Of a stretch of DNA of 64,000 nt, positions 51,322-55,094 are shown piece after piece (the first letter of the stretch is position 1; every line of letters starts with the position of its first letter). The stretch is from NCBI GenBank assembly GCA_902168205.1, contig CABHOK010000012.1, positions 62,001 to 126,000 of the forward strand, read 5' to 3'. Source of the stretch: an uncultured Chitinophaga sp. (GTDB lineage Bacteria; Bacteroidota; Bacteroidia; Cytophagales; Cyclobacteriaceae). Both the position numbers and the translations under genes were made by a program. Under the pieces are notes generated by a model. The model did not search any database and had not been told where the DNA came from. It saw only the letters and a list, made by a program, of their open reading frames with translations.

Positions 51322-51530
51322 TTAATATCCCGGGTTCTGTGTCAATGCTGAGACACCACCAGAAGTACTCAAGTCAATCTGGCGTTGTGGAATCGGGAAG
51401 TAATCGCTCTTCCATCAACGAATGTCCCTCCTACTATGTCTGTAGTAACTGTACTTTCGTAGGCAAAAAATTTATTCAGTGTTTCTGCAGCTATACCCCA
51501 CCGCACCAGGTCAAAGAACCGATATAGGTA
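51322..51530 (-). pseudogene. Remnant of a SusD C-terminus, frameshifted
   Basis: Two minus-strand frames join to a canonical SusD ending. The first reads RFFDLVRWGIAAETLNKFFA and VDGR. After a one-base shift near 51395 the second reads KSDYFPIPQRQIDLST and ends LTQNPGY with a stop at 51322-51324. Everything upstream of about 51530 (some 450 residues of SusD and any SusC) is gone. It is therefore a decayed end of a former SusCD operon, still followed by its terminator. The 651-bp gap 51133-51783 holds nothing else but terminators. Confidence 0.82.
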
Positions 51531-51783: not shown

Positions 51784-52869
51784 CTAATGCCCTGTTATCT
51801 GGAAGTTATTATCACTTATATCATAGCTATTCGGATTATTAACATCGGTGACTTTTATTTTATATACATTAAGGCCTGCCCCCGGGAATGCAGAGACAAA
51901 CGACACCGTGCCGTTAACAACGTTATGTACCCCATAGTAATAAGCCCTGTCGTTCTGAAATAAATCAACAGCAACCTGGGTAGGATTAAATACAGCTGTA
52001 TTAAGCACTATCTGCATTTGAAATATAGCAGAGCCGCCACCTTGTGTTCGTCCATGAAAACTTTCACCTCCATTGGGGCTGATCAGTCCATTTGAAATTA
52101 AGTTATTCTGAGGATAAAGCGTTTGAGCCGCTAAAATATCATTGGATGAAAAACCATTCCAACTGAAATTAGCGGTGCCTCCGTTCATGACAGAATTAGG
52201 ATCTGATGTAGGAGTTCCCGGCACTGTGTTGGCGCCATCAGGGTCGGCCTGTTCACCTCTTTGAGACCAGTTAGTATGTCTGAAACCAATACAATGTCCA
52301 AGTTCATGAACTAAATTATATCGCATCTGGCCAGCGCTTATCGAACCATTGTTGAAATCCGGATTAACATTAATTATAGCACCGGCATTTCCGCCCTGTG
52401 GCGGAGTGGCACCAGCAATTACATTCGGTGGCAACATACCACCATCGTTTTGAATGATGATATCAGCATTATTGGAACTTGTTACATACGAAAAACTAAT
52501 GCGACAATTGGTGATGTTAGTCCAATCATTGGTTGCGTTGACAATCTCAGTATACCAGGCTGCCGGCAAAAAATTAGAACTCGTATTCAGAATATGAACG
52601 CGTATAGTAGGCTGCGAACTATAGCTAACCAAATTGTACGTGCTCGCTTGTTCTGTTCGTCCATTTTCTCCTGCGAATGATTTCGGAATTAAGATATCAC
52701 CTTCCACCAGATAGTAATCTTCCAATTCAATTGTTTCGGGAATAGCGTTTGCATCCGTATTATTTTTCACTCCCTGATCTTCATCCTGACAGGAGATAGC
52801 GATTGCTAAAATCAACAAAAGAGACATAAGGGATTTTCGTAGAGAAAGAACGGGCATTTGCGTTTTCAT
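51784..52869 (-). CDS. M57-type (dual-action HEIGH-like) metallopeptidase lipoprotein
   Basis: The 361-aa lipoprotein (LAIAISCQDED) contains a metzincin zinc site HELGHCIGFRH with a following TNW, the signature of Bacteroidota M57 peptidases, preceded by TIRVHILNTSS and NVNPDF. The PNSVMNGG segment supplies the Met-turn. A C-terminal Ig-like domain starts at LISPNGGESFHGRT and ends NNFQITGH. It is the only gene downstream of the cobalamin riboswitch on this strand (226 nt away), which is an unexpected pairing. The target protein is unknown. Confidence 0.87.
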   Translation of the reverse strand: MKTQMPVLSLRKSLMSLLLILAIAISCQDEDQGVKNNTDANAIPETIELEDYYLVEGDILIPKSFAGENGRTEQASTYNLVSYSSQPTIRVHILNTSSNFLPAAWYTEIVNATNDWTNITNCRISFSYVTSSNNADIIIQNDGGMLPPNVIAGATPPQGGNAGAIINVNPDFNNGSISAGQMRYNLVHELGHCIGFRHTNWSQRGEQADPDGANTVPGTPTSDPNSVMNGGTANFSWNGFSSNDILAAQTLYPQNNLISNGLISPNGGESFHGRTQGGGSAIFQMQIVLNTAVFNPTQVAVDLFQNDRAYYYGVHNVVNGTVSFVSAFPGAGLNVYKIKVTDVNNPNSYDISDNNFQITGH

Positions 52870-53094
52870 AACTTTTGTTTTTGGGTTTAGTAACTGTATA
52901 ATATAAGCGTAAGCTAATAGTACGATCCCCGCTGAAAGTTTTGTACTGGTCCGTGTTCATGCTCTCTATAGGTCAGAGTGATAAGCAGCAACGAACCACG
53001 AGCCGAAATCTTTCAGTCGTTTTTAAATCTAAAAATAGATGAATGCAACAGGGCTATATTTCCCTTATCCCGAGAGAAGTTATACCTGTTTTGT

Positions 53095-53270
53095 TTGGCA
53101 GGTCTCCTGGCTTCGTGTCTCGTTACCAGTCTTCCCGTGCCGCGAAGGCGACAGTGACTAAGATTCAAGGGGTAACGAATTTCAATAACACTTTCAGTAG
53201 CGGGTACTGCTCCGGAATTTCACCGGATTCCCTTTTCATTGCGCGAACCGATTATAGGTACTTGCAAAAC
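53095..53270 (-). promoter_or_regulatory. Cobalamin (B12) riboswitch
   Basis: On the minus strand the conserved elements appear in order: GGGAATCCGGTGAAATTCCGG, GCAGTACCCGCTACTG, then CACTGTCGCC, GCACGGGAAG and finally GAAGCCAGGAGACCTGCC. These are the core of the adenosylcobalamin aptamer including the B12 box. Size and order are complete. Such elements normally switch off btuB-type receptors or B12 synthesis genes when the vitamin is plentiful. Here the next same-strand gene is the M57 peptidase 226 nt downstream. The rest of the 513-bp gap 52870-53382 shows only a promoter. Confidence 0.93.
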
Positions 53271-53279
53271 CAATTGAAA

Positions 53280-53287
53280 CAAATGTA
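53280..53287 (-). promoter_or_regulatory. Promoter -7 element for the riboswitch transcript
   Basis: TACATTTG on the minus strand matches the Bacteroidota -7 consensus TAnnTTTG exactly and lies just upstream of the aptamer 5' end, placing the start site near 53275. No well-spaced -33 element was found. Confidence 0.55.
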
Positions 53288-53382: not shown

Positions 53383-54171
53383 TCATTTCAAATCTGCAAC
53401 GAAGTATGTATACATTCTAAGCTCACTCCCATCGGCATTCCAACCGGATTTATACATTTTCAAATAGAATGTCGTATCATCCTTCCACCTGATTTCTTCA
53501 ATGGATAATTCGCCCTCTATAAAACAACTTGAATACTCTTTCAAAAAATGTCCCGAGTGTCTCTGTCCTATTTTTAAAACGGCAATGCTCAATGTCCCCG
53601 ATTCATACTCCGGATTCTGATAATACACCATGTACTTGTAATTCACAGAAGGCTCCGGCAGTGAAACACTGTAGTCACCCAGGGATATCAATTTATACTG
53701 ATCATTCGTGACGCTATCAATCAACATCATCTCGCCAAAACCCAAGCCTTCTGCCGTTGAATTATTTCGAATCGCGAATATTTTCATTCGTGAATTATAC
53801 CCGAGATACTCACTCCCGCTCCAGCCCGTTTCACCTCCGTAATTCTTATACTCCTTAAACTCAAGTTTCTCCCTTGACGTTCGGATAACGAGATTACCTC
53901 CCCTCCTTTCAATATTCGTTTTATAGAATGCATCGCGTGAAGGTATCTTCAGGAAATCACGTTCATTGACAGAATCTATTCGGAATTTTGGCAACCGCTC
54001 GTAAATCTCATAGTAACCGATTTCAACTACCTTCGTATCGTCAACATTTTCATCGGAGATTTCGATGGTGTTGATTCCTATATTCTGTGTATTCAGGAAA
54101 GCAGTTTCAGGATATATAAAATTGCATGGATCTATAATCAGAAATAGTAAAAGTGCGGCAAATACTGGCAT
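53383..54171 (-). CDS. Exported hypothetical protein
   Basis: The 262-aa product starts with a signal peptide (FAALLLFLIIDPCNFIYP) and is otherwise beta-rich and acidic (YYEIYERLPKFRIDS, SLPEPSVNYKYMVYYQNPEYESG, IEEIRWKDDTTFYLKMY). No family recognised. It follows the lipoprotein gene at 54222 by 50 nt, so the two likely form an operon. Confidence 0.6.
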   Translation of the reverse strand: MPVFAALLLFLIIDPCNFIYPETAFLNTQNIGINTIEISDENVDDTKVVEIGYYEIYERLPKFRIDSVNERDFLKIPSRDAFYKTNIERRGGNLVIRTSREKLEFKEYKNYGGETGWSGSEYLGYNSRMKIFAIRNNSTAEGLGFGEMMLIDSVTNDQYKLISLGDYSVSLPEPSVNYKYMVYYQNPEYESGTLSIAVLKIGQRHSGHFLKEYSSCFIEGELSIEEIRWKDDTTFYLKMYKSGWNADGSELRMYTYFVADLK

Positions 54172-54221
54172 CGTTAACTCCTTATAATTTCCTACTTACA
54201 CTCAATGAAACCATTAAAAGA

Positions 54222-55094
54222 TTAATCGGTTGTCAATTCCAATTCGTCTAAGGTTCCCCTTACAGTTTTCAATTCTTTTATTCTTTCTTCCTTCACGTCA
54301 ATCAATGACTCAATTTCTTCTGCCGTCAGTTTTGGTCTCTCAACTTTATATCCATTAAGAACCAGGCTCACAACGGTAACTTTCAATTCCAGATTAAAAT
54401 CAGAAAGGTTGGGGTTCTCCATAGGATATCTGGAAGCGTTCCACAACCTCGGATTCGTTTCCTGGGTTTCACTCAATATAAGATGTTCATCAAACGACTC
54501 CTGTGCGCCTATCAAACTCGTCTCATCTCCGATGGTAATGATTTGGGACTTGATTACTTCTCCCGTTAGGCGTTGCAAAAGTTCAAACTGAAACGTCATC
54601 GGTCCTTGCAAGGGCGATGCTCCTATATATTTATACTCTACTTCCAGTTCCGGAACCATCCGGTCAAAAAAGTCAACGCGATTAATTTTGACAGAGCTCA
54701 CTTTAAACAGATCAAGTCGCTTTTCAATGTTTACAGACTTACCCTTCAGACTGTCCAGCCGGGCTATCTCTCTCGTTGCTTTTTCTATTTCTCTCTTGTT
54801 AGTCGCCTTTAAAATATCTTCTGCTAAATCGACAACAGAAGTATAGGTCTGTCCATCTACCATTGACAGGGATATATCATCAAGCGATTTACCTTTATAT
54901 TCCTCTCTCGAATCCCACTTAAGCCGCATAGCCTCCAGGGCGACAACACGTAACGCTTTCTCCAGGTTTACCCGCTCTCTCTCATCCAATTCATCTTCAA
55001 CTTTTTTTCGCGAACTATCAAAATCATTTCCATCCAATTTTTCCTGGCACGAAGCCATCATCAACAAGATAAATAGTACTATACTCCTTCTCAT
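54222..55094 (-). CDS. Lipoprotein with coiled-coil region
   Basis: The 290-aa lipoprotein (LLMMASCQEK) has a helical N-terminal half (KKVEDELDERERVNLEKALRVV, IEKATREIARLDSLKGKSV), a beta-rich centre (VPELEVEYKYIGASPLQGP) and a charged helix at the C-terminus. It resembles DUF6694-like lipoproteins with which the N-terminal FDSS-x-x-K pattern agrees, but I hold this loosely. First gene of a two-gene unit with the exported protein at 53383. Confidence 0.6.
   Translation of the reverse strand: MRRSIVLFILLMMASCQEKLDGNDFDSSRKKVEDELDERERVNLEKALRVVALEAMRLKWDSREEYKGKSLDDISLSMVDGQTYTSVVDLAEDILKATNKREIEKATREIARLDSLKGKSVNIEKRLDLFKVSSVKINRVDFFDRMVPELEVEYKYIGASPLQGPMTFQFELLQRLTGEVIKSQIITIGDETSLIGAQESFDEHLILSETQETNPRLWNASRYPMENPNLSDFNLELKVTVVSLVLNGYKVERPKLTAEEIESLIDVKEERIKELKTVRGTLDELELTTD

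Follow-up and report, generated by a model that had tools for sequence, protein, structure and literature searches.

What is a complete cobalamin riboswitch doing in front of a gene for an M57 metallopeptidase? The pair lies in the window, the 64-kb stretch of DNA analysed here, and the initial annotation had left two branches open: either the peptidase is B12-regulated and a new member of the regulon, or the riboswitch is an orphan after gene loss. This odd pairing probably arose by accident in the genome and probably does not mark a new enzyme under vitamin control.

The riboswitch itself is real. Its match to the Rfam family RF00174 (Cobalamin) on the minus strand reaches 99 bits (E 1.6e-23, gathering score 31.5) and covers model positions 1-189 of 189, which is not due to chance, and it is the sole Rfam match at gathering threshold within the window. 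The initial annotation had called a complete cobalamin riboswitch at 53095-53270, a span that lies inside the full-length match at 53289-53080; counting the L13 hairpin, the element runs from 53289 to about 53060 (Table 1). The B12 box is exact (GCCAGGAGACCTGCC), and so is the -7 box of that annotation, but the -7 box falls inside the 5' edge of the Rfam match and not just upstream of it. The sequence TAnnTTTG is reported as the sigma-A -7 consensus of Flavobacterium psychrophilum (PMC9723704). It occurs exactly near the aptamer start in 32 of 60 family riboswitches as against 122 of 2,950 random stretches, and the position of the box in these relatives matches its position in the window. A -33 element, read as TTG 18-22 nt 5' of an exact -7 box, is found in 10 of 42 riboswitches, with 9.4% for control positions; the window riboswitch has TTG only at a spacing of 25 and is without it at the usual distance, like the 32 of 42 riboswitches that have the exact -7 box alone.

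Both elements of the L5-L13 kissing loop are present. L5 has a published consensus of UCCCG (PMC10653944), and its CCCG in the window (53204-53201) is complementary to CGGG in L13 (53072-53069), so that the two loops could be expected to pair; the L13 loop motif lies 23 nt past the B12 box, a spacing shared with relatives. The bases reported to have mattered in a corrinoid riboswitch of Priestia megaterium, CCG in L5 and CGG in L13 (PMC10653944), are both there. P13 forms a 6-bp hairpin, and since the 39-nt stretch that holds it folds no better than shuffles (z 0.48), the L13 hairpin rests on comparison with relatives and not on energy. Two further RF00174 matches occur in the host genome (G000:C20 and G000:C3, 94.2 and 91.9 bits), one of which leads a TonB receptor gene followed by cobU-, cobT- and cobS-like genes, and the other a btuC-like transporter gene (all named by eye).

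Table 1. Features at and around the riboswitch, in window coordinates.
Feature	Coordinates	Strand	Basis or remark
SusD-like gene 3'-end remnant, frame broken, rest missing (named by eye)	51322..51521	-	82% identity, about 200 bp
M57 metallopeptidase, 361 aa, ORF intact	51784..52869	-	PF12388
Leader between P13 and peptidase start	52870..53059	-	Pattern scans
P13/L13 hairpin UUCUCU-CGGGAUA-AGGGAA, expression-platform half of kissing loop	53060..53078	-	Comparison with relatives
Cobalamin riboswitch aptamer RF00174	53080..53289	-	Rfam, full length
U-to-A change (CUGU to CUGA)	53194	-	A here; U in 79/79 other aligned aptamers, Rfam consensus U
L5 kissing-loop sequence ACCCG	53201..53205	-	Sequence reading
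-7 box TACATTTG (consensus TAnnTTTG)	53280..53287	-	Exact match, 5' edge of aptamer, within Rfam span
262-aa protein, no Pfam or NCBIfam match, upstream of riboswitch	53383..54171	-	1/295 family genomes
290-aa lipoprotein-like protein, weak DUF6694 match (PF20404 E 9.1e-6)	54222..55094	-	1/295 family genomes

The gene behind the riboswitch is also what it was taken for. Residues 68-252 match PF12388 (E 5.4e-14, 52.8 bits against a cut-off of 21), and HELGHCIGFRH at residues 188-198 fits the pattern HExGHxxGxxH. The protein starts with a lipoprotein-like signal, ILAIAISC (judged by eye), and has a further C-terminal region. Pfam gave only PF12388 and a sub-cut-off M10 match and NCBIfam gave none, and neither collection relates the sequence to known proteins of corrinoid uptake, corrinoid synthesis or B12-independent bypass. 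The peptidase was described as the only same-strand gene downstream; it is indeed the first gene-like ORF on that strand, but the SusD remnant (51521-51322) and a histidine kinase gene (51132-49987) follow on the same strand.

We looked at what lies behind cobalamin riboswitches across the family. The survey took in 80 places, comprising 17 in the genus (all but the window's own), three of the four in G008, and 60 hand-chosen among the matches listed, the last of which are mostly high-scoring and well-flanked; one of the 80 (L143) runs off its contig, leaving 79 riboswitches. Genes were named by phmmer similarity to references that were themselves named by eye, with 15 proteins checked by Pfam; short or overlapping mechanical ORFs were passed over in some rows, and the set holds near-duplicates from sister species (L155/L156, L157/L172, L169/L170 and L154/L159). 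With these limits, the first same-strand gene encodes a TonB receptor in 41 of the 79, a btuC, btuF, cob or ECF-type protein in 10, MetE in 9, a lipoprotein or YncE-type protein in 10, and a 2Fe-2S thioredoxin-like protein in 2. Single cases are a 4HBT thioesterase gene followed by a cobW-like gene (L124, G058:C5) and a sulfatase-modifying-factor-like gene with a TonB receptor gene 2 kb further on (L150). PAS and/or thioesterase genes stand first without an intact metE in four (L164, L175, L049, L052), and one riboswitch (L178, G165:C1:1171796-1171977) is followed over the next 4 kb by no same-strand ORF of 80 aa or longer. What follows this aptamer in relatives, a comparison that the initial annotation had named, is thus mostly TonB, btu/cob/ECF, metE and lipoprotein genes, and a peptidase-like first gene, M57 included, was found at 0 of 79. 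A search with the window protein likewise found no M57 relative among the 388 ORFs of at least 80 aa near the surveyed riboswitches.

The converse comparison gave the same answer. The closest relatives of the peptidase, in G005 and G019, share 50-52% identity over the peptidase domain; no closer one was found in 148 family, 390 order and 395 class genomes, nor in a scan of genome contigs, which returned five loci with M57 relatives at 28-31%, matching mostly in the C-terminal region. With Rfam applied to the matched stretch plus 1.5 kb on each flank, a cobalamin riboswitch was found at 0 of 42 other M57 loci (20 + 11 + 11), a set outside which lie many weaker M57 matches and in which two loci are shortened by contig ends (L061, with about 0.5 kb upstream, and L066, cut downstream). 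The window's own M57 locus gave its riboswitch when scanned alike. A literature search turned up no paper that places an M57 peptidase after a B12 riboswitch, which is not proof of absence; searches on M57 gave nothing on topic by title or abstract start, and those on riboswitches with gene loss, hijacking or rewiring found no paper.

The riboswitch has a broken gene nearby, and the stretch that holds both has no equivalent in the genus as sampled. When compared with six congeners at E 1e-10, the window matches G004:C4 and G005:C32 at 44.6-50.8 kb, and G005:C53, elsewhere in the G005 genome, at 55.2-58.8 kb. For the interval of 51.1-55.2 kb, none of the six has a syntenic counterpart: at that threshold the matches are confined to the riboswitch core and the SusD piece, and a laxer one adds 200 bp of the peptidase gene, which match G005:C6 at 68%. 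The two adjacent genes upstream of the riboswitch (53383-55094) were found in the host only, that is, in 1 of 295 family genomes. The SusD remnant matches the 3' end of a 600-aa ORF that is intact in G005:C47, and as no riboswitch lies at that locus (L114), the SusD piece is uninformative about the former target of the window riboswitch; a SusCD system as the lost target is unsupported for the same reason.

The aptamer carries small marks of its own. An alignment of 80 aptamers (the window's and 79 others) has 45 columns conserved at 95% or more, chosen without the window sequence, which by construction biases the counting against the window aptamer. It agrees at 43 of these columns and deviates at two, and one of the deviations, the U-to-A change at 53194, is unique to it; the equivalent base is U in 24 of 29 further pattern-readable loci, which partly overlap the aligned places. 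Across the 80 sequences, 61 deviate nowhere, 15 at one column and 4, including the window aptamer, at two. A second mark lies beyond the aptamer: an ATG stands 14-40 nt after the start of the L13 loop motif in 52 of the 70 relatives with a placeable L13 loop (in 10 others it could not be located), as against 172 of 560 control stretches from 5' flanks, and the window riboswitch has none at this place, a lack that it shares with 18 of the 70.

On balance, we think that the riboswitch has probably been parted from its own gene by rearrangement, leaving the M57 peptidase behind it as a passenger. We count for this reading, and for gene loss as the better supported branch of the initial annotation, the completeness of the riboswitch, the missing counterpart of its segment, the host-only genes upstream, the broken SusD frame, the bare M57 loci, the lack of M57 genes near other riboswitches, and the two deviating columns with their changed invariant base. 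The family also holds precedents. PAS and/or thioesterase genes follow metE in L160 and L171, and in L175 (by phmmer) and L164 (by eye) what appear to be scraps of a metE start precede PAS or thioesterase genes, while L049 and L052 have solely PAS/thioesterase genes, without metE. In these four the riboswitch was apparently handed over after gene loss, and L178 is apparently another orphan. At least 5 of 79 (L164, L175, L049, L052 and L178) are thus without an intact B12 gene first, a rough base rate for the family by which hand-over or stranding would not be unique to the window.

In the sequence of events that we favour, a once-ordinary cobalamin riboswitch would have lost its gene by rearrangement, with the segment either inserted in this genome or lost from the others. 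The original target was presumably an uptake or related gene, since the L5 and L13 letters are those of btuB, btuC, cob and lipoprotein switches and not those of metE switches. Riboswitches of uptake-type genes (L033, L034, L125) read CCCG in L5 and CGGG in L13, and several of metE genes (L160, L171, L177, L180) read CGCG in both; the rows of the metE group have L5 CGCG, or CCCGCA one base shorter, with L13 UCGCG or UCGUG where found (it was not found for L037 and L041). The window riboswitch, with ACCCG and CGGG, was accordingly rejected as a member of the metE group. RNA from the riboswitch promoter probably still reads into the peptidase gene, as no terminator-like site lies between, and B12 control of the peptidase is probably weak, absent or incidental, given the missing ATG after L13 and a peptidase start about 190 nt past the hairpin. 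With 99 bits for the window aptamer against 94.2 and 91.9 for the two host copies before B12-type genes, any decay would be slight or recent.

Several observations count against this orphaning, the higher score of the window aptamer among them. Relatives without the ATG (18 of 70) are not rare, the sequences with two deviating columns do not include L178, itself an apparent orphan, and the choice of columns is biased as stated above. Nor is there a trace of the lost gene in the leader: with 545 ORFs of the surveyed loci as queries for a TonB, cob or metE remnant, the best per-query E was 0.001, which is chance, and better matches in a wider region hit the aptamer itself, so that such a remnant was rejected. 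The gap, finally, is within the normal range. Counted from the end of the B12 box, the peptidase start is 228 nt away (211 nt from the end of the Rfam match), and the box-to-gene distance in the family (from mechanical ORF starts) has a median of 131 and is 228 nt or more in 9 of 71 riboswitches, a set that leaves out L124, L143, L158, L173, L178, L181, L037, L043 and L052, where the box was unclear, a gene was lacking or the ORF start overlapped with the aptamer. Distance was therefore rejected as an anomaly, and the gap carries no weight.

That normal spacing belongs equally to the case for a peptidase under working B12 control, the other branch of the initial annotation, which we consider unlikely. 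In such a scheme, bound B12 would let L5-L13 pairing stabilise P13 and repress the gene, and without B12 a surface lipoprotein protease would be made, perhaps freeing protein-bound corrinoids. Position and strand suit it, a simple pattern scan of the minus strand found no terminator-like site between riboswitch and peptidase, the catalytic motif and ORF of the peptidase are intact, and L5 CCCG and L13 CGGG retain the core pairs reported as important in the Priestia megaterium riboswitch (PMC10653944). Lipoprotein or YncE-type genes moreover lie behind 10 of 79 family riboswitches, and one of their families is DUF4465, which is discussed together with the cobamide-binding BtuJ lipoproteins of Bacteroides (PMC12751083). 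Against B12 control stand the association kept at none of the 42 other M57 loci, the absence of a start codon directly after L13, the U-to-A change in an invariant aptamer column and the rearranged segment. The more specific idea of a surface metallopeptidase captured by the B12 riboswitch, made under B12 lack and freeing protein-bound corrinoids nearby, is quite doubtful. Were the peptidase B12-controlled, vitamin B12 scavenging would come to include the breakdown of proteins, and the captured peptidase would place a proteolytic step of that scavenging under direct RNA control.

It is also improbable that the peptidase has a promoter of its own in the 190-nt leader while the riboswitch drives a short orphan RNA and the two are functionally unconnected. 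The leader holds no exact TAnnTTTG and folds no more stably than shuffles (z -0.72 and -0.67). Its two overlapping one-mismatch -7 boxes (53037-53024) could serve as such a promoter, but they are at about the level of mononucleotide shuffles (mean 1.3), and a short RNA is also disfavoured by the absence of any terminator-like site on the minus strand past the riboswitch. The missing exact box before 52869 says little, because an exact TAnnTTTG lies within 250 nt upstream of just 1 of the 13 window genes examined, and the other 12 make a non-consensus promoter plausible. An assembly error joining riboswitch and peptidase is very unlikely, for although about 51.1-55.2 kb is without syntenic counterpart in the genus, the site lies deep within its contig of 182,550 bases, one of 20 in an assembly rated 99.47% complete.

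A riboswitch that has been orphaned, as we think this one probably was, can be set beside known systems. With the btuB/btuC group of RF00174 in the same family it shares the full-length aptamer, the -7 box at the 5' edge, L5 CCCG, an L13 about 23 nt after the B12 box and a gap within range; those riboswitches precede a TonB receptor, transporter, cob or metE gene, whereas the window copy precedes an M57 peptidase, lacks an ATG directly after L13 and has the U-to-A change at 53194. The metE-group cases L164, L175, L049 and L052 resemble it in that the riboswitch was kept while the usual first gene is gone or reduced. They differ in keeping genes found behind metE in other family genomes, whereas the gene behind the window riboswitch occurs in no surveyed B12 operon, and the L5 and L13 of that riboswitch are not of the metE type. 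In Mycobacterium tuberculosis, a B12 riboswitch is reported before ppe2, whose function is uncertain and which is followed by cobQ and cobU; the ppe2-cobQ RNA is reported to fall with B12, with binding shown (PMC11260477). There, too, the gene next to the riboswitch has no obvious tie to B12, but cobQ and cobU follow and the response was measured, whereas the window riboswitch has no B12 gene behind it and is described here from sequence. Riboswitch loci of Bacteroides are reported to encode the corrinoid-binding lipoproteins BtuG and BtuJ (PMC6143338, PMC12751083), so that a lipoprotein gene behind a B12 riboswitch has company in Bacteroidota; BtuG and BtuJ are described as binding corrinoids and lie in uptake loci, whereas the window protein is a metallopeptidase with only M57 and a sub-cut-off M10 in Pfam. 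The locus offers a natural case for asking whether a riboswitch parted from its gene decays, keeps working, or comes to serve a newly placed gene.

Two minor observations arose from the survey. The ATGs after L13 open frames of fewer than 40 codons in 36 of 52 riboswitches (for example L153, L154, L034 and L044), and these short frames are possibly leader ORFs tied to the switch, such as have been reported for M. tuberculosis B12 switches (PMC11260477). Behind other B12 riboswitches (L039, L040, L042, L155, L169, L170) lies a secreted family with a PAPGQF motif, whose members at L169 and L039 have no Pfam match and which is a candidate family of corrinoid-binding proteins.
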